A stretch of 64,000 nucleotides of DNA from Phanerochaete sordida (Eukaryota > Basidiomycota > Agaricomycetes > Polyporales > Phanerochaetaceae), in the NCBI GenBank assembly GCA_019973155.2, contig BPQB01000010.1, positions 620,001 through 684,000 on the forward strand, written 5' to 3'. Under the pieces are notes generated by a model, which did not search any database, was not told the DNA's origin, and saw nothing but the letters and a program-made list of their open reading frames with translations. Shown in pieces: positions 19,117 to 29,544 of this stretch (the first letter of the stretch is position 1; every line of letters starts with the position of its first letter). The position numbers and the translations under genes were made by a program.

Positions 19117-20841
19117 CTATCTTGAACCAGCTGAATCGCTGTCCAACGTCCCCGGCGCGGCCAGCTCGACGCGTTCCAGGTCCTCGGGCGAATGTATGCA
19201 GAGCAATTCGCCTTCGTGCATTCCCAAGCTGCTGTCGGGGTTGCTGGTATACGCGTGCAAGTTGAGCTATCCCGGTATTTTCAGCCGACCCAAAGCGTGC
19301 GTAGTGGCTGCGACTCACAAGCAGGCGACTTGCGATCACGCCTTCGACCGCCAGCGACATCCTGCGCATCCGTCGCGTCAGCGCATGTCCACAACCAGCA
19401 AACCAGCCAGCCTACCCAGGAAACGCATAAAATAACGCTTTCTGCGCCCGAGTCAGCACCCTGTGCATTCGAGCGCACTGAGCAAACTCACGTTTGTGCC
19501 GCACCAGAGCACGATGTTGACGAGCGCGAGCGAGAGCGTGCCCGTGCACGCGAAGAGCGAGTCGCGCATGAGCAGGCGCACGAGGGCGGATGGCTGCTGC
19601 GCGGATGTGTGCTGCGTCGACGGGCAGTGTACGGTCGCGTGCAGCGCAGGGCGCGCCCACGCGCCGAGCGTGCGCGCAAGCGCGAGCGCCAGCAGCGTCC
19701 CTTCGAGCACGACCTTCGCAAGCCAGAACGTCCACGCCCAGCGCGGGAAGGTGATGGTCCAGCAGCGGCTCGTGCGGCCTGCGGGTGCTGCAGCGCGGAG
19801 GGGGCGGCGGCACGTGAGGGCCGCGGTCAGGGAGCTGGAGAGGGTGGACGCACTGGGGCCGTGCACGGCGAGCACCGTGAAGAAGACGACGCCGAAGACG
19901 AGGAGCGCGCCCAGCATCGTGAAGAGCGCGTGGCGGAGGCGGCGGGCGCAGTTGTAGAGCGCGTTGACGCGGAGGATGAGGACGGCTGGGTGGCAGGGTC
20001 AGCTTCGTTATCGGTGGGCAGTTTGGTGGGAGGCAGCGTACACGCGTCCATTGCGTACGTGAGAAGGCTCATGTAGGGGAACCAGTAGTAGCACGATTGA
20101 CATCTGGAGAGGCTTCAGGGGGCTTGGATGCGAGCAACGGGGGCTGTAATTACTTACCGCTAGAGATATTATCGATGAGCGATGGCGAATAGGAGATGGG
20201 TCGCGAACGCACCGCAGACTCAATTCGCGCGAGACCCAGGTCTGACCGCGTTTTGTGAGTGATGACACGCATTTTGGTCTGGGTGAAGACACGTACCGCA
20301 AACAGACATTGTCATACTTGACAGACCTTAGCATCAGGCTCTTCGTTGAGATTGAGAGGCAATCTCACATTAGGGTGACTATTCTGTTGAAGGTGTCAGC
20401 TGTGCGGGGTGTACCTGGCTATCAATCTGCGTACGTCGAATATCGGCACTACGATACGTTTTAAGAGACCGTCAAACAGTGCAGCTAACGATACCAGGAC
20501 GTACAACGGCGAAGATGATCTTTGTGGGCTTGCTACCCCTAGCCCAGATATAATGAACCTAAACCAAGCCATTTTAAAAGAGATGTGCTGCACAGAGTCA
20601 GCAAACCTACCTCGTCACTGAACGTAAGGACTGATAGACGAGCACAAGCTACCATTTGAGCAACCACAGGTGCAGGAACCCGCCACCACTCACGGTAGTC
20701 ATAGGTAATGAGCGCGATTGTGGCGACTGCAGCAGAGCTCTCTCAGCCTATGCAGGAAAGCGATGGGCTCGGGCACTCACGCCATGTGCTGGTGATGAAG
20801 CGCGTATTGTCTGCGACGGCCCGGTCGCTGGCAAGAGCCAT
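19117..20841 (-). CDS. DUF6533-family membrane protein A, 340 aa
   Basis: Exons (minus): 20841-20781, 20726-20694, 20630-20611, 20558-20505, 20448-20435, 20383-20369, 20316-20297, 20241-20213, a 2-nt exon 20159-20158, 20103-20042, 19985-19492, 19441-19416, 19361-19319 and 19266-19117. The N-terminal signature TYDYLLTFSDEVHYIW followed by a CRY segment matches DUF6533. Later come CQSCYYW, LILRVNALYN and several membrane segments, then a charged C-terminus (IHSPEDLERVEL), in the GPCR-like seven-helix style of this fungal family. Exon sizes copy those of the two paralogues at 25707 and 27849: 61, 33, 20, 54, 14, 15, 17/20, 29, 2, about 62 and, at the end, 26 and 43. The central intron of the paralogues is absent here. 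Function unknown. Confidence 0.82.
20158..20159 (-). other. Two-nucleotide microexon (CG) of paralogue A
   Basis: CG sits between CTCTAG and GTAAGT. It is needed to keep the frame between the 29-nt exon and the 62-nt exon and gives an arginine codon with the next A. Same position as the AT microexons of paralogues B and C. Confidence 0.65.
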
Positions 20842-22592
20842 GTCAGGGTGCCCGTGAGCGGGTCGCGGTATACATACGCTGCGCCGGCGTCTAGGGCAAT
20901 GCTGCCGGATGTTTCATGTATGACCGGATCCTCGCCCGCGGGGGACGCGGCACCGTCCTTCTCAAACACTGGCCCGCCGCCGTGAGGGTTTAGCGGGGCC
21001 CGGAGGACCTGGCAGCGGCAGCGCCGCGCGGGCCTATCCGCGACGCGTGCGGACGATTACGAGGGTTGTCTCCAGATGTGTCAGACATCGACTCTGCGCT
21101 GCGTCCAACGGTACTCCAACAGGTCACCAAGCATCTGCAAGCCGTTGATCAGACTATTGCCTTCAGGAGTTTGGTACAGGGCTGGAACTGTGCGCACACC
21201 CGCTCCGAGGACGATTCAAGGCAAGCGTTAACCCCGCCGGTATCGAAGCGGGAGCAAATTCGCGTTTAAGCTGTCGGCGCGGGCGGGCTAGTACCGCCGG
21301 GTCGATAGCCTTCGCCCGCGGCACCTTTGCATTGAAGGCTGCTTATTCGTCGTCCTAGATATCGATATCTGGGATGGTCAGTGGGATATCGGCGATTTGA
21401 CCGTCGTAAGTTGGCGCATCATTGAGCCCCCTCCGCGAAGAGACGTCAGGCGCACTGAAGCAAGCAAAATGCGGACGCATCGGTGTCTGTTGCGACACAC
21501 ACGCATGTCACGGATGACAGGATCGAGAGAGACTGGGGCGAGCCCTCCGACCGGACCGGTAAGAATCGCTCTGGGTTTTGACAACAGCGAGAGTGGTACT
21601 GCGGCGTTTGAAGAGTCCGAACGTGATAATTGTATTTCTGCAATGTTTATAGCCTACAAGCTTGGGCACTGTACACTCACAGCAGATTTTCAATAGGAGG
21701 ATGGCCTGAAGTCGTGGTGATATAATGACCACTCCCATGCCGCATATGCGGCTTCCTAGAGACGGGCGCAGGCGAGCGATGTGCAGCGGACCATGCAGCG
21801 AACTGGATACAGGTTGCCGGTATATGGACCACACGTGCAGCGAGAGAGATAAAGTGGACTATGCTTTTAAGGTGCATCATAAACACAGCAGCAAAGTGCG
21901 AACATCGGGCACGCACCTTCGCACTAACCGAGGCGTCACCAGAGCAACGCTCCGTGAAATGGTAGTCTCCAGCGGGGGAAGGCGACACCCACAACAGTTG
22001 GGTTGCAGAAGACCCAGACCAAGTCTTCCCTACGGGAGCGGCGAAACAGAACCAGGACGAGGCCGCTTTAGCAGGCAGACTAGCGGTGCGCTCGATGACA
22101 CCGTCAAGTTGGAGGACCTAGAAATTCGGTCCAGAGAAAGATCACGGCCGGTTTTGACGTCAAAAATTTGTTGGACATAGTGCGCAGGTGCTCGTTTCGA
22201 AGGCATGAGCGTCGGCGATGGGCATCCGGCTGCATAGGTTCGTGCACCGCCGGTATCTGGGAAATGCCAGGTGACGTGTCGTCCTCCCACTTTTGCGGAT
22301 TCGGAATGCGAACAAGACAGTGGTACCAATATCATGGATGCTCCGAGGGTAAGAAGAGGTGCCCGGGCGAATCTTGGTGAAAAGACGGTGAAAGCGTAAG
22401 GCAAGAGACGAGTGTGATGAGGATCACATGTGGCAAATGACACGTCGCCAGATTCGCAGGCGCGTCTTCAAGTATCCGCGCCGCGGACCCGCCAGCTCTC
22501 CCTCCGACCACCACTACCCCTGCACGGGCCCTGCACCACCCTTCCAGCCTCCATTTGTTGCACATTTGTGACAGAGGCTCAGACTTGCCGAG
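20842..22592. other. Gene-poor intergenic region
   Basis: About 1.75 kb between divergently transcribed genes. It contains a GC-rich block near 20980-21060 and short open frames without splice or family support. No gene called. Confidence 0.45.
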
Positions 22593-24217
22593 ATGGCGAA
22601 GGGAATGTTCGGAGGCATGAAAGGCCTCGATGCCTTCGGTAAGGTCAGCAGGTGTCCGAGCACTCGCGTGCAACCAGCCTCTCACTGCGTCGCGATGTAG
22701 ACTATGGAGGATGTGAAGGTGAAGACAAGGACAGGCGCATTCCGTACGTTCCCACCAAGTTCTCTGCAGAGCTCAGCTCTAAGAAACTATGTCTAGTGAC
22801 CATCCTGTCTGCCGCAATCATCCTGGCTATAACGACCATGGAATTCTTCGACTACCGGAGAGTAAACCTCGACACTTCGATTGCCGTTGACAAGAGCAGA
22901 GGCGAGAAACTCATCGTCAGCTTCAATGTCACTTTCCCCCGCGTGCCATGCTACCGTGCGTATTCACCTCCGAATTTCCGCGCCATGCTCACAGGATTGC
23001 AGTGCTCAGCCTTGATGTTATGGACATCAGCGGTGAGACTCAGACCGACATCGTGCACAATGTTATCAAGACAAGAATGGACGACAAGGGAGTAGCCGTT
23101 CCCGCGAATAAGATTGTCGAGCTTCGGAACGATATCGACAAGCTGAACGAGCAGAGGCAGGCGGGATACTGTGGCTCGTGCTACGGAGGTATTGAGCCAG
23201 CGTCCGGTTGCTGTAACACTTGCGAGGAAGTCCGCCAGGCGTACATAAACCGGGGCTGGAGCTTCAATTCTCCGGATGCCATCGAGCAGGTACGTCGCAC
23301 GAGCTCTATCGAGTGGCTCTCGCTTACAAGAGCCACAGTGTGCGCAAGAAGGCTGGTCCGACAAACTGCGCGAACAGGCGAACGAGGGATGCAACATTGC
23401 GGGCAAAATTCGTGTGAACAAGGTTGTCGGAAACATCCACCTCTCGCCCGGTCGTTCCTTCCGCAGCGGCTCGCAGAACATCTACGAACTCGTGCCCTAC
23501 CTCAAGGAGGACGGCAACCGCCACGACTTCACGCACACTATCCACCAGTTTGCGTTCGCTGGCGACGACGAGTACAACTTCGCGAAGGCGGACAAGGGTA
23601 GGCAGCTCAAGCAGCGCCTCGGCATTACGGAGGGACCTCTGGATGGATCCACCCAGAGGGTAAGTCGGCACTTCATCAGGACGAGAATTACATACTGATA
23701 TCTCTGCAGACTATCAAGCAAGCGTACATGTTCCAGTACTTCCTGAAGGTGGTCTCGACGCAATTCTTGACTTTGGACGGCAAGAACGTGCGTTCTCTAC
23801 CTCCCACCGCTGTGCTTCCTCAACCTGACGCGTCATGCAGATCAAAACCCACCAGTACAGCGCTACGCACTTCGAGCGCGACCTGTCGAAGGGTATTGCC
23901 GAGAACAACCAGCAGGGCGTGTACATCATGCACGGCATGTCTGGTGTCCCAGGTAAACCCGCAGTCATCCACGCAGAAGCGTCCACTCAAACTCGTTCCC
24001 AGGCGCCTTCTTCAACTACGAGATCTCGCCCATCCTCGTCATCCACCAGGAGACGCGCCAGTCGTTCGCGCACTTCCTCACCTCGACGTGCGCCGTCGTC
24101 GGCGGAGTGTTGACAGTCGCGTCGCTCGTCGACAGCATGGTCTTCGCCACGAGCAAGAAGCTGAAGAAGAGCGGCGGCGGGATGAGCGCGGGTTACACGA
24201 ATGGGAAGCTCATGTGA
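22593..24217 (+). CDS. ERV46: ER-Golgi cargo receptor Erv46/ERGIC3, 421 aa
   Basis: Eight exons: 22593-22643, 22701-22743, 22797-22955, 23003-23289, 23339-23659, 23710-23787, 23841-23952 and 24003-24217. The order matches Erv46: a short cytosolic start (MKGLDAFGK), a membrane segment near residues 32-50 (LTILSAAIILAITTMEF), then DYRRVNLDTSIAVDKSRGEK. The lumenal domain has the conserved cysteine cluster (GYCGSCYGG, GCCNTCEEV) and FFNYEISPI. A second membrane segment lies near 375-398, followed by a short basic tail. Erv46 partners Erv41 and retrieves HDEL-less ER proteins from the cis-Golgi; both termini are cytosolic. Length matches the family (yeast 415). Confidence 0.95.
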
Positions 24218-24744
24218 TTGGTTTACGCGTGTTCTGCGGTTTGGAATTTATTCTCTGGATGTATCATTATGCTTCGCTGGGATGGACTCCTCTGTTCAAT
24301 CTCTGAAGCCCGACACCTAATATTTCCGGCACAGGTGGAAGTATCGCGTGATCAAAGGCCCGCTGTTCCTCACACATGTCCTACTCACCACTTGCTCATG
24401 CGCTCATGGGTCAGCTACTCGCGTATCGATCATCTCTGCGGTGTTGGTGAGCATTCCGATATATGATACCGTATACTCTGCGACTCATTGTACTAATAGT
24501 ACTAAGAGCTCCGGTCGTCTTTCGGGTCGAACTCCCAGAACTCGGCAGCATAAAGTTAGCGAGCGCAACACGACGCGGGAGCGAAGACGTACGCATCCAC
24601 TATATGGTATAGCGAAGACCTATGGCACGAGAAAACTCTTCATGACGCTAGGCTCCCCTCCGGGGGGGGGGGGTCTCACCCACTTCGGCTTGTTTATAAA
24701 CTATGATTATACGGGCTACCGGGCGACACGAGCTACCGAGGCCA
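24218..24744. other. Intergenic region
   Basis: No gene seen. A run of 12 G lies at 24662-24673. Confidence 0.35.
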
Positions 24745-25385
24745 ATGCTCACAAATTTATTTATATAGGTATCGGTCACCTCCGTAATGTGCTTCATCTT
24801 AGCTTCGGCCATGCCCGCAGCCTTCAACTTCTTGGGTTCCAGGTATGCCACCTCATGGATGAGCTGCGACACTGGGTGAGTAGATGCAGATTGTAGCCAG
24901 GCCATCAGCGGTACCCACGTGTACGGACAGCGGCTGAGCAACCAGGTCGACGAGGCCTTGCAGGTATACACTAACGAAGGCGGCAGCCTCTTGGGTCGCG
25001 GCCGTGCACTTGCCAGGTCCGTAGTCGTGCTTCAGCGCGAGACAAGGGATGAAATAGCTCACTAACTCGCCCAGGTCATAGATCCCCGAGCACAGGACCG
25101 CCTGCTGATGGCCTGAAGGCCTCGACGGGATCGCGGGAGGTCACACGGTCGTACGGCATGATTTGATACGGTAACAGAGATCGCGATGCCTTGAATCTCA
25201 AGTACTTACATACTGTGCCCAGCGCCCCTCAGGTTGTGGATTTTGTTTAGCGACGACAATGCAGGCTGCGACGCTGAAGCAGTACCGGACATCTCAAAGC
25301 ATCGCGGAGACACGACGACGTACATGCGCCTTGGTTGCTATTCGCGATTGATACTCGGGCTGCTGAAACTCCCGCCACGGGCCTA
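24745..25385 (-). pseudogene. Broken copy of an unrecognised conserved protein
   Basis: On the minus strand several protein-like pieces follow each other. Near 25380-25324: PWREFQQPEYQSRI. Near 25260-25205: VAACIVVAKQNPQPEGRW, ending at a GTAAGT donor. Near 25180-25100: MPYDRVTSRDPVEAFR. After a frame change near 25085 come ELVSYFIPCLALKHDYGPGK and AAAFVSVYLQGLVDLVAQ. Last is KKLKAAGMAEAKMKHITEV near 24840. The pieces read as one globular protein, but the frame breaks between VEAFRPSAGG and YDLGELV with no usable intron. I infer a frameshifted remnant or an unusual splice. Family not identified. Confidence 0.45.
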
Positions 25386-25706
25386 GAAATCAAACCGCTC
25401 CTCCGGGCGGAAGCAGTAGAACATTGCTGACTCGATAATCAGCATTCTTTTGCAGGAACACATATGCGCCCGAAGGCTCCTCCGTCCGACTCGCGCAGTG
25501 TATTGCAAAGGAGACTTCCCTGTAGTCGTGGATCTGACCTGGATGTGGTTCAAGGCAGAACGCTCGGCGCTCCCACGGTTCACCGAACGAGGCGATGCCC
25601 TTCGACGATGTCGATGAACCTTCACTACGGACCTTTGCGGGTGCGGCACCGCTATATACGACTTTGACTGGAGCCTAAGCCCCACCCAACCCTACGAGTG
25701 GACAAC
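25386..25706. promoter_or_regulatory. Promoter region of DUF6533 paralogue B
   Basis: A TATATA element at 25653-25658 lies about 50 bp before the ATG at 25707. No other gene supported. Confidence 0.45.
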
Positions 25707-27395
25707 ATGGCGAGCTTCGATGCATCCGTTGCAGCGCAGGACTCTCGCATCGTCTGCAGCGTTTGGGGTGAGTCTCGTTCTCCTGGCATGCTGCCTTGTT
25801 AGATGGCCCTCAATACTCTTCTGTCGCAGTCGCGACGATAATATTCCTTGTGTACGATTGGAGTACGTAGCTTGATTTCTGGCTGTTAGCCGTACTCACC
25901 CCGCGCGCGATGTAGGTCTAACCCTTGCCAAGGAGGCGAGTTTTGAACGTTACTATCAACTTACGATACTCATATCGTCTAGTCATACCACATATGGACT
26001 CGCGCACAATGGACAATCCGGTTCTTATACGCCTCCGTGAGCTTGTTGGCGTTTTACTTCATCTGTTACGGTTTCTCATGGTCACAATCGATAGTGCAGA
26101 TATGGGTCGTGAGTGAGGAATTCTCGCCTCCATGAGCCTACGGCTGACTAGCTATTGCTTCCAGCATGGCTAGCCTCCTGTAAGTCAGGCGTTTATCAAG
26201 GTTGTTATAGATACCCTTTTAAACTGGCGCGTCGTTCATCGCCCCATTCTCCGCAGTGTTGCTTGTGTCTGCGGTATGTCCGCGTCAAATGTGGGCCAAG
26301 ATGCCTTTGATACTGACTTTGGCATATCTCGAATCAGCGCTCGGCCGTATAGAAGTCCACCAAGAGGTACGGTACCCGCATTGGACATGCGCTGATTACG
26401 AGTTCTTATGACCGAGCACCAGATGTGAGTGCAACTATTGAATGCTTTTGCCTCTTCATGACCTTCATCTTCGAATAAGGTGCATCTTCTGTTACTATTG
26501 GATTGCTTACACCTCTACGTTCAATTACGGTTTAGTCGCAAGTACGCCTTCCTCGGTAACTGAGTCTTGTGTTTTAGTAATCCGTGACCGTCCAGCGGTG
26601 TTGATCCTGCGCATCAACGCGTTGTACAGCTGTAATCGGAAGCTGTTACTCGCACTTCTCACCATGCTCTTTGCGCTTGTGGTATTTGCAGTAATTTTTC
26701 TTACGGTGCTAAACGAAGCGGGCGTCGGTGAGAGCCCTCAGACTCCCATCAGACTCAGGGAACTGCTCAATCTGAATAAGTCTTATAGTCTCATCTAGTG
26801 ACCGCAGCAAATGCCTCGATATCCGATATCACAGCTGGTCGTGGCTCTTCTGGGTGCCGAAGATCAGCTTCGAGAGCCTGCTTATCACGCTCGCTCTAGG
26901 GCGGACTGTTACCACACGATACCACCTTCAAAGCCAGCCGGCCCGACTCGAACGCCTTCTTTTGCGGGATTCTATCTTCGCATGCATAGGCACTCTCACT
27001 TTCGCTATCGTCAATGTCGTGGTATGGCGTATGCGTACTGTAAGCTTTCACTTACTGCCCGTGTCCCCCCGCTAAATATTCGTTCCAAAGCATTATCTTG
27101 TCTTCGCTTTTGCGCCGTAAGGGCTCCCTGCGTCGCTTGCGATGGCATTTGGACTAATGTGAACGCACAGCGCAGCCCAGGCTGTGGAGTCCGTGATTGG
27201 AAGCCGTCTCATTGTAAGTCGCGACAGTGGTATCGTCATGAACTGCCTCACCAATGGCCGGCATAGCTCAACATTCGTGAGTTTGGGGACCCAGTCGACG
27301 GGCAGCGAGGGCGTCGGGGCGGCGTCCTTCAGATACAATCACCAAACGATATAGATCAAGTATATTTGAGTAGAACAGACGAGCGATCTGTATAA
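25707..27395 (+). CDS. DUF6533-family membrane protein B, 295 aa
   Basis: Exons: 25707-25767, 25830-25862, 25916-25935, 25983-26036, 26095-26108, 26165-26179, 26257-26273, 26338-26366, a 2-nt exon 26423-26424, 26480-26541, 26596-26727, 26789-27039, 27091-27116, 27171-27213 and 27267-27395. The DUF6533 signature is VYDWSLTLAKESYHIW, then a CRY segment; later come CYYWIAY, LILRINALYS, LERLLLRDSIFACIG and QAVESVIGSRLI. About seven membrane segments are expected. The intron after the 20-nt exon begins with GC instead of GT; the same intron in paralogues A and C begins with GT. One continuous frame and paralogue-matched exon lengths suggest an intact gene, tandem with paralogue C. Function unknown. 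Confidence 0.8.
26423..26424 (+). other. Two-nucleotide microexon (AT) of paralogue B
   Basis: AT lies between an ACCAG acceptor and a GTGAGT donor. With the following G it makes ATG and restores the frame into CIFCYYW. An alternative that skips it (donor at 26372 within the preceding GTACG) would also keep the frame here, but no such option exists in paralogue C. Confidence 0.6.
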
Positions 27396-27848
27396 CGCTG
27401 TACATGCATTTATTTATCCTGCCATGATTGCATCGCTGATTGCACCGCCGGCCCTCAGTCGGTTATTTCGACAGGCTTGCTCTTTGTCCCGCCGTAGCGA
27501 TATGAAACGGTGTTTAAGACTGGGTCGAAGCAACGATCACTTCGCCTGGACCTCACTACACCTTTCGCTCCGGTCGCGTCTCAACAAGATATTTAGGCAC
27601 AGTCACCGATATGTCAACATGACACACGTTGTGGTGGATAGTATCACGGTATCCCTTCGTACGCAGAAGCGTTTTCACACAATGACGCTGACGATCTGCC
27701 ACATCGTTGGGCGGATTATGATGCGGACGTTACCAGCCTAGCAACAAGTTCGTGGGAGATGCTAACATCGACTGGCCTCGACATCACGGGTGCAATGCAG
27801 GGCATAAAAGCAGGACGAAAAAGCAGACGATCGACTCTCCACCTCACT
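27396..27848. promoter_or_regulatory. Intergenic region with TATA element of paralogue C
   Basis: These 453 bp separate tandem paralogues. CATAAAAG at 27803-27810 lies about 40 bp before the ATG at 27849 and looks like a TATA box. Confidence 0.5.
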
Positions 27849-29544
27849 ATGACAGGCTTCAGCGAGCTGGTTCTCGCGCAAGACGACCGTATCACATCCG
27901 GTGCTTGGAGTAAGCATGTTGTTTTGGCCATCGCCATTTTGATGCCCTACTCACTAATGGATTCGTGGACATTTAGTTGCAGCTATGGTATTCTCCTTCT
28001 ATGATTGGGGTAAGAATATCCCGCCGGCCGCCCACAGTACATGAGCAGATAGCTGATTCGACATATAGCCCTAACTTTAACCGACGAAGTAAGGCGAGTA
28101 TGGGTTGTTTTATCGAGAGACAATAACGTCGGTAAATTCAAGGTATATCTTATTTGGGGCCACGGGACACGAGCCTCTCAGTTCCTATATGCTACAGTAA
28201 GCCCCCTTTCCTTACCGCACCAAAGCTGTGCGGAGTATATAATGTTGCAGAGCAGATATGGCCAGTAAGTCTTGTATTTGATTTTGAAATGATGCATCCA
28301 GCAATGACGGTCTGGATGGCCATCTTTAGGATGATAAGCTTACTGTGAGCGGCTCTGTCTTGACTCCAAAGCTGCCCTAGACACTAACGTGGTGCGTGTT
28401 TTAGGGCAGCGTGCAACTGTGGTGAGTGAACGTCGTCTTGATATACCATGAGCTGAACTCATTTTGACCTGATTTAGCTCTGGGGGATGTTACTATCGAT
28501 GACAAAGTGCGCCACCCCTCATAGGGCCTTGGTTTTATGCTAACATCCAACCAACAGATGTACGCGTGAATAGTTAGCAGATGGTATTGGGGCTTTGCTG
28601 ATGATAGATCCAAATAAGGTGTACATTCTGCCATCGCTGGGTAGCGTGCACCACTTTAATCACCTATTCGCTGGTCGGTAGTAGGTGCAACTCCAGTTTA
28701 TTCGCTAGATTCTACTGACGCTGCAGAGCTCAATAGCTGTCCTTATCATCCGTATAAACGCCCTGTTTCACAAAAATCGGACGCTTTGTATATTTCTCTT
28801 CGTGACGTTGGGCGGAGCCCTCGTTTTCGCAGGTTTTTTTCTGAGCTTCGTCTCTGATATAGGCTCACAGGAAGGTGAATACGCAGGCTCTTCGCATTTG
28901 AGTAAAACGACGGATAGCTCATTCACCGACTGCTATAGCACTCCCAGAACAACAGATCCGCTGCTTCACGGGAATCGAGCACAGAAGCTGGGCATGGATT
29001 TATTGGATCCCTGGAAAAATGGCCTTGGACAGCCTTCTACTAATCCTTGCACTCGGTCGAACCACGGCGCTGCTGCTTAATAATCTCCGGGATAAGCCTT
29101 CTCCGCTCGAACGCTTGCTGCTGCGCGACTCCATCTTCGCGTGTCTTGCTACGCTCAGCGTCGCTATCGTCAACTTGGAAATGTGGCGCGTCCCTGGAGT
29201 GAGTTTTCCATCGAAGGTCAGTCATTGGGCATCCGCTGATGGTGGACCAGCATTCCTTGATATATGCGTTCCCGGCGTAGGTGTTCAGGAACCGTTGAAT
29301 CGCACCTGCCGGCTGATCATTCGTACAGCGTGGCGCAAGCCGTCGAGTCCGTGGTAGCCTGCCGTCTGATCGTAAGCACATCCACTTTGCATCTGGTACC
29401 TCGACCTCACTCTGTCCCATGTAGCTCAACATACGCGGATTCGCCAATCCGATGTGCGGGCAGCTGTCCCTCGATGGCGACGTGCTCCGGATCCATTCTC
29501 CCGGAGATCTAGAGGACATCCAGCTCACCACCATGCCCGGCTGA
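27849..29544 (+). CDS. DUF6533-family membrane protein C, 296 aa
   Basis: Exons: 27849-27909, 27977-28009, 28069-28088, 28143-28196, 28251-28264, 28330-28344, 28405-28421, 28478-28506, a 2-nt exon 28558-28559, 28619-28677, 28737-28874, 28939-29198, 29251-29276, 29329-29371 and 29425-29544. Signature FYDWALTLTDEVYLIW, then SRYG; later CGALGDVTIDDK, CTFCHRW, LIIRINALFH, WIYWIPGKMALDSLLL and QAVESVVACRLI. Exon lengths match paralogue B almost exactly (61, 33, 20, 54, 14, 15, 17, 29, 2, 59 vs 62, 138 vs 132, 260 vs 251, 26, 43). This supports both models, including the microexon. A multi-pass membrane protein of unknown function. Confidence 0.82.
28558..28559 (+). other. Two-nucleotide microexon (AT) of paralogue C
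   Basis: AT lies between CCAACAG and GTACGC. Without it no donor joins the 29-nt exon in frame to the CTFCHRW exon. Flanking introns are 51 and 59 nt. Confidence 0.68.

Follow-up and report, generated by a model that had tools for sequence, protein, structure and literature searches.

Exons of a single nucleotide (nt) have been published for plant APC11 (PMC4674806) and for APC11 and VPS55 together (PMC8831610), and exons of 2–5 base pairs (bp) in Arabidopsis, Drosophila and humans are cited in a report on the Fusarium gene CYP621A (PMC12940212); here and below, such statements extend as far as the available excerpts of the cited papers. In this work we describe three genes of the DUF6533 family, termed A, B and C, each of which probably contains a 2-nt coding exon among many other very small exons. 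They lie in a 64,000-nt stretch (positions 620001–684000 of contig C10; hereafter the window, in whose own numbering coordinates are given) of the 40.8-megabase genome of the basidiomycete Phanerochaete sordida. The plant exons resemble ours in being ultra-short, needed for the frame and overlooked in annotation, and here too some homologues carry the base within a larger exon (PMC4674806, PMC8831610); intron definition with stepwise removal has been proposed for the APC11 exon (PMC4674806). They differ in measuring 1 nt, in occurring once per gene in two conserved plant gene clusters, and in having RNA support, plus reporter constructs for APC11. The CYP621A exon is likewise fungal and was first deduced from phases that do not match, an intron of doubled length and a homologue lacking introns, and then confirmed by reads, but it is 1 nt long and occupies one site in 20 orthologues of Fusarium species (PMC12940212). 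Ours, by comparison, are 2 nt long, fall at two sites per gene in tens of paralogues of one basidiomycete genome and are predicted from DNA sequence. The original prediction, which placed exons of 2 nt at the lower limit of what spliceosomes are known to use, has to be amended in light of these published 1-nt exons (PMC4674806, PMC8831610, PMC12940212).

Other described systems share parts of this arrangement. In the same genus, P450 genes of Phanerochaete chrysosporium have many small exons and frequent 45–55-bp introns, but the shortest exon reported in the excerpted text is 6 bp (PMC1184071). Stwintrons, described in several fungi, also involve two short introns removed successively (PMC6616335); no exon lies between those introns, whereas the DUF6533 genes keep 2 coding nt. 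Within the family, the DUF6533 (PF20151) membrane protein SNB1, predicted to have seven helices, is required for fruiting-body patterning, and the domain is called basidiomycete-specific; the available part of that paper does not mention exon structure (PMC10949477). Neither a 2-nt exon in the DUF6533 family nor a large gene family with two 2-nt exons was found in the open-licence literature. As far as searches of that literature reach, the ultra-short exon is a kind already known, and its scale, its two sites per gene and its lineage are new.

We consider A, B and C to be micro-exon-rich DUF6533 members, each with a real 2-nt coding exon that descends from the common ancestor of most family genes read, and we assign this reading a probability of about 0.92. 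It draws on position, frame, splice signals, conservation among paralogues, family members in which the 2 nt are fused to the next exon, and in-frame variants of 5 and 8 nt. When models were built by hand, the three genes could be read through only as about 15 exons each, the 2-nt exon included. This exon 9 is CG in A (20158–20159, minus strand), the first two bases of an Arg codon, and AT in both B (26423–26424, plus strand) and C (28558–28559, plus strand), where exon 10 completes a Met codon; the donors that follow are gtaagt, gtgagt and gtacgc, respectively. In all three genes and in a relative from elsewhere in the genome, D, the exon is directly flanked by AG and GT. Exon 8 of A–D ends in phase 0 and exon 10 begins in phase 2; the 2-nt exon carries the reading from phase 0 to phase 2, and the frame is broken without it. 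Its flanking introns are 51–59 nt each in A–D (53 and 54 nt in A, 56 and 55 nt in B, 51 and 59 nt in C). Without it a single intron of 109 (A), 113 (B) or 112 nt (C) would take their place, about twice the usual length, the other introns of A–C measuring 47–77 nt.

We then placed these models beside those of a spliced aligner, which scores protein similarity and splice-site matrices and is blind to exon lengths. With leave-one-out input, consisting only of the proteins and splice sites of the other genes and excluding the sites beside 2-nt exons, the aligner recovered exons 2–10 of A, B and C at identical bases, the 2-nt exon included, and also recovered the 2-nt exon of D (minimum intron 45 nt). 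Barring the 2-nt exon cost 46 half-bits in A, 32 in B, 25 in C and 28 in D. The 3' ends given by the aligner were partly unlike the hand models, with an extra intron in A and a spurious terminal exon in B. The original prediction had described three DUF6533 paralogues of 14–15 exons, 2-nt exons CG, AT and AT with donors GTAAGT, GTGAGT and GTACGC, and micro-exons of 33, 20, 14, 15, 17 (20 in A), 29, 2 and 26 nt, all of which our models bear out.

In each gene, exons 1 and 15 come from the hand model and, apart from the cases noted here, the exons between them from the hand model and spliced alignment alike. Gene A, on the minus strand, opens with exon 1 (20781–20841, 61 nt, with the ATG) and continues through exons 2 (20694–20726, 33 nt), 3 (20611–20630, 20 nt), 4 (20505–20558, 54 nt), 5 (20435–20448, 14 nt), 6 (20369–20383, 15 nt), 7 (20297–20316, 20 nt) and 8 (20213–20241, 29 nt) to the 2-nt exon and then exon 10 (20042–20103, 62 nt), which encodes CQSCYYW and within which the public model of A, P0001, begins, so that exons 1–9 are missing from it. 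A 494-nt exon follows in the initial model, but P0001 lacks residues from its interior, and a further in-frame intron of 66 nt (19853–19788) is most likely present there; with it, all three genes would have 15 exons. Its removal leaves exon 11 (19854–19985, 132 nt) and exon 12 (19492–19787, 296 nt), the latter of which the aligner would split further. Exons 13 (19416–19441, 26 nt), 14 (19319–19361, 43 nt) and 15 (19117–19266, 150 nt, with the stop) complete the gene.

Gene B, on the plus strand, consists of exon 1 (25707–25767, 61 nt, with the ATG), exons 2 (25830–25862, 33 nt), 3 (25916–25935, 20 nt), 4 (25983–26036, 54 nt), 5 (26095–26108, 14 nt), 6 (26165–26179, 15 nt), 7 (26257–26273, 17 nt) and 8 (26338–26366, 29 nt), the 2-nt exon, exon 10 (26480–26541, 62 nt, encoding CIFCYYW), and exons 11 (26596–26727, 132 nt), 12 (26789–27039, 251 nt), 13 (27091–27116, 26 nt), 14 (27171–27213, 43 nt) and 15 (27267–27395, 129 nt, with the stop). 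Gene C, also on the plus strand, has exon 1 (27849–27909, 61 nt, with the ATG) and exons 2 (27977–28009, 33 nt), 3 (28069–28088, 20 nt), 4 (28143–28196, 54 nt), 5 (28251–28264, 14 nt), 6 (28330–28344, 15 nt), 7 (28405–28421, 17 nt) and 8 (28478–28506, 29 nt) before the 2-nt exon. Its exon 10 (28619–28680, 62 nt) encodes CTFCHRW, and the interval proposed earlier for this part of C, ending at 28677, falls 3 nt short of its end. Exon 11 (28737–28874, 138 nt) precedes exon 12, which we place at 28939–29198 (260 nt) and the aligner prefers at 28948–29198 (251 nt); exons 13 (29251–29276, 26 nt), 14 (29329–29371, 43 nt) and 15 (29425–29544, 120 nt, with the stop) follow.

The first ten exons are thus equal in length across A, B and C, with the exception of exon 7. 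Among the corresponding introns 1–10, pairwise comparison failed to exceed the top score of 50 shuffles in 29 of 30 cases, the lone exception being a narrow one (intron 8, B versus C, 2.0 versus 1.5). Since nearly all of these introns cannot be aligned, the shared exon plan is not leftover sequence identity. The spliced proteins matched Pfam DUF6533 with E-values of 9.5e-13 (A), 2.8e-8 (B) and 1.2e-8 (C) and bit scores of 48.5, 34.2 and 35.3, all above the gathering score of 24.1, the match in each covering the residues encoded by exons 1–5.

Genome-wide protein searches with A–D as queries returned D (contig C19), E (contig C76) and then more distant family members. When gene A served as the protein-search query its sole match was its own truncated public model, and no match was found with an alignment of A–D as the query. 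Both D and E follow the plan 33-20-54-14-15-14-29, and the plan 33-20-54-14-15-(14 to 20)-29 is common to at least five genes (A–E). The 2-nt exon of D is TT. Gene E lacks the downstream intron, and its 29-nt exon is followed by one of 64 nt, that is 2+62 with the 2 nt fused, which makes it the same kind of length marker as the intronless Fusarium homologue (PMC12940212) provided. Introns at columns 11, 18, 36, 40 and 45 occur in A–E and are absent from 12 other genes mapped alongside, while the column 50/51 intron of A–E is also found in a subfamily on contigs C54 and C126. The extra micro-exons of A–E would have arisen from the introns at those five columns, and the 2-nt exon looks older than the A–E micro-exon plan. 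The intron after the 20-nt exon begins with a GC donor in B (gcgagt, 25936–25941), D (gcaagt) and E (gcaagt), whereas A and C have GT there. This GC-AG intron recurs at a single position, gene B and the minus strand of loci L009 and L024 being the places concerned.

The heavy fragmentation of these genes, together with an identity among A–C of only 38–48% and 3' ends of D and E that are only partly modelled (D fits poorly there), would suit decaying gene copies in which the micro-exons are an artefact of frame fitting. We give this next to no credence: splice signals are present at all junctions of A–C, internal stop codons are absent, conserved Cys and Trp residues and DUF6533 motifs are common to all three, and the pattern recurs in 57 of the 69 family loci surveyed below.

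We then surveyed the family across the genome. Six-frame searches gave at least 150 DUF6533 hits (150 of 203 candidates scored), making 151 loci with one more, from all of which A–E are missing; 69 of the 151, those in DNA placed for analysis, were readable. The hits are tightly clustered on contigs C2, C58, C86 and C104, many copies lying within tens of kilobases. A family profile yielded the usual plan 152–192 | 2 | 62 | 98 | 92 | 2 | 141 | 16 | 49 | 32, in which there are two 2-nt exons, hereafter site 1 and site 2. These exons occupy column 58 (40 genes), 57 (1), 142 (45) and 143 (3), and only 2 were found elsewhere in the 69 loci. Both are present at columns 58 and 142 in 28/69 loci and at least one in 57/69, a 2-nt exon anywhere in the gene being found in 58/69. 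All 40 of those at column 58 begin in phase 0, one donor after a site-2 exon is GC, and many genes with a 2-nt exon have neighbouring exons of ordinary size. A–C carry site 1 alone; although 92+2+141+16 add up to the 251 nt of exon 12 in B, the introns are out of register and the match was dropped as a coincidence. The microexon model drawn from frame and paralogy in the original prediction, and its claim that the arrangement predates the duplications, are supported by the sequences. The prediction was, if anything, understated, given the plan shared among A–E and the 2-nt exon predicted in most readable family genes. We infer a single ancestry for this exon across the family.

Scanning for micro-exons of 1–12 nt before an in-frame 62-nt Cys exon gave a candidate in 49/69 loci. 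The best length was 2 in 43 of these; the others were 5, 7, 10 and 11 (one locus each) and 12 (two loci). Among all candidates scoring above 45, length 2 was found in 36 genes and every length other than 2 and 6 in at most 2. Some genes on C86 and C58 had only weak site-1 candidates. A 64-nt exon replaces 2+62 in two canonical genes (C2:644096 and C2:141907), the site-1 exon is 5 nt (2+3) in C2:710956, and the site-2 exon is 8 nt (2+6) in five clustered C8 genes. Since these variants move by threes or fuse, the 2 nt behave as coding sequence.

This behaviour bears on the idea that each pair is a stwintron, an intron nested in the splice signal of another, whose two-step removal leaves no exon behind. 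Stwintrons resemble two adjoining short introns, and fungi are known to carry them. Full removal would nevertheless break the frame, since the phases of exons 8 (ending in 0) and 10 (starting in 2) require 2 nt between them; moreover, fused members keep those 2 nt as coding sequence and the lengths 2, 5 and 8 rise in steps of three. We find this alternative exceedingly improbable and retain a 2-nt exon.

As controls on the survey, intervals shuffled with dinucleotides kept and then realigned yielded a 2-nt exon in 4/164 cases at site 1 and 11/192 at site 2. Five-fold held-out profiles, which exclude the tested genes' own proteins and retain the remaining first-round models, reproduced the 2-nt exons of 68/69 genes. 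In four extra loci, hand-picked from the unread ones before inspection, at least one 2-nt exon was present in 4/4 and both in 2; one of the four, L066, scores low. A low intron penalty in the aligner produced spurious micro-exons in distant genes, and those values were not used.

Seven public proteins of P. sordida were compared with our models. P0006 inserts 7 residues and P0010 20 residues at site 2, P0010 deviating at site 1 as well, for which our model lacks a 2-nt exon. P0035 is 10 residues short at site 1 and out of frame at site 2, and P0106 begins downstream of both sites. For P0071 and P0091 there was no match above 60% identity among our family models. The comparable public models, P0001 of gene A among them, fail at, or omit, the 2-nt sites. 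Protein sets and domain models built on models that are wrong at these sites would be incorrect beyond those points.

A family search also returned 109 proteins, 22 of which we classed as transcript-like by source ('lgn' or 'jgi') and contig size (longest contigs 1,026–3,868 bases), the nature of the contigs being unstated in the records. Between P0057 and P0079 ('lgn' contigs) there is an intron-sized insertion of 17 residues that, judged by eye, coincides with an intron position of the family; this fits an RNA origin with a retained in-frame intron of 51 nt. We tallied insertions and deletions (indels) along the family profile, using 28 windows that overlap one another. Those in columns 134–145 (site 2) affected 6/22 transcript-like versus 43/66 other proteins (Fisher p 0.003, uncorrected for window number), and those in columns 126–137 affected 5/21 versus 45/75 (Fisher p 0.006, likewise uncorrected). 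Columns 138–150 were free of indels in 20/22 transcript-like and 37/68 other proteins. Of six aligned pairs of a transcript-like protein and a model, P0028 and C2:230887 had gaps at neither 2-nt site, and P0005 with C2:141907 and P0008 with C2:644096 had none at their single site (site 2). P0056 and P0051 were gap-free at site 2 and had gaps near site 1. Some continuous open reading frames on short transcript-like contigs of other fungi thus agree with the predicted junctions, and at site 2 most of them do.

Several observations weigh against a 2-nt exon. All exons were inferred from DNA sequence, and a 2-nt exon is absent at both positions in 12/69 loci (ten of them from a subfamily on contigs C54, C126 and C173 whose introns differ), site 1 being classed as 'other' in 26/69. 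Scan candidates above 45 also include length 6 in 8 genes, and several length-2 candidates have weak sites. The transcript-like P0041 has gaps near site 2, and at site 1 a loop of variable length makes the indel comparison uninformative, so that transcript-like proteins offer no discrimination there. With the minimum intron set at 40 nt, the aligner prefers an 11-nt exon in D (470.1, versus 465.3 for the 2-nt model with a 45-nt minimum), and it finds some workable, non-homologous alternative in each of A–D, such as an acceptor 11 nt upstream in C or another donor and acceptor in A.

These frame-compatible alternatives are what would be expected if there were no 2-nt exon but a single intron of about 110 nt, with gene-specific alternative splice sites restoring the frame by chance. 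Public models P0006, P0010 and P0035 use such detours at other loci, and locus L064 (C104:28900-30600), one of the four extra loci, has a 117-nt site-1 interval with no 2-nt exon there in its best model. Yet the alternatives vary from gene to gene at a cost of 25–46 half-bits and need a doubled intron at just this place; of the 49 candidate-bearing loci, 43 favour length 2, and the fused 64-nt members retain the 2 nt as coding. Chance restoration of the frame therefore strikes us as very unlikely, and we proceed with the 2-nt exon.

In the ancestor of most genes read, two introns would have lain 2 nt apart at site 1, just before the conserved Cys that opens predicted helix 3. A second such pair, at site 2 close to where predicted helix 5 begins, is present in most genes read and not in A–C. 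Splicing of the 2-nt exon would proceed by intron definition, each intron of about 54 nt being recognised alone and the pair removed successively, since two spliceosomes could hardly sit 2 nt apart; the frame suggests that this splicing is constitutive. Among models scoring at least 200, the flanking introns average 54.3 and 55.0 nt versus 57.1 nt elsewhere, and no compensation by stronger splice sites was seen (p 0.36 for donors, 0.31 for acceptors). The last exon base is G at 14/88 donors after a 2-nt exon versus 145/318 elsewhere, so the exon seems not to help its donor. Ordinary intron lengths and splice-site strengths with an unhelpful exon fit intron definition, with the introns removed in turn.

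For the protein product, we examined a predicted structure of P0004, a family member other than A–C (47 sequences; predicted local distance difference test score, pLDDT, 81.5). It has seven long helices and one short one, with a hairpin between the fourth and fifth. The 50 matches listed in the PDB were all G-protein-coupled receptors (GPCRs), though weak ones (best E-value about 1e-3, template modelling score by query length 0.29–0.44). P0004 is predicted on this basis to be a receptor-like seven-helix membrane protein, and the family as a whole may be of this type. Two Cys residues, 94 in helix 3 and 164 in the hairpin, are nearly invariant in the family and occupy places that a disulphide links in many GPCRs. 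The residue encoded at site 1 immediately precedes the first of these Cys residues, and column counting puts site 2 close to where helix 5 begins.

Extending these results, we lean towards the view that the two 2-nt exons are ancestral and conserved in most DUF6533 receptor-like genes of mushroom-forming fungi, where a hundred or more in one genome may be routinely handled by intron definition. They would then be the cause of failing public models and perhaps of a Pfam model that covers only 46 residues. Exons of 1 or 2 nt have been described so far in a handful of genes, and the present case seems to be a large family that relies on 2-nt exons at two independent sites. One organism would thereby offer tens of natural replicates in which to study the definition of 2-nt exons, the order of removal, and the origin and loss of intron pairs. 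The annotation failure concerns a family linked, through SNB1, to fruiting-body development.

Within the window, a further gene copy was sought on both strands of 24200–25720 and no convincing one was found (best 34 half-bits). Between A and B lies a plus-strand multi-exon gene (22594–24217), which, read by eye, we take to have the look of an ERV46/ERGIC-type cargo receptor.

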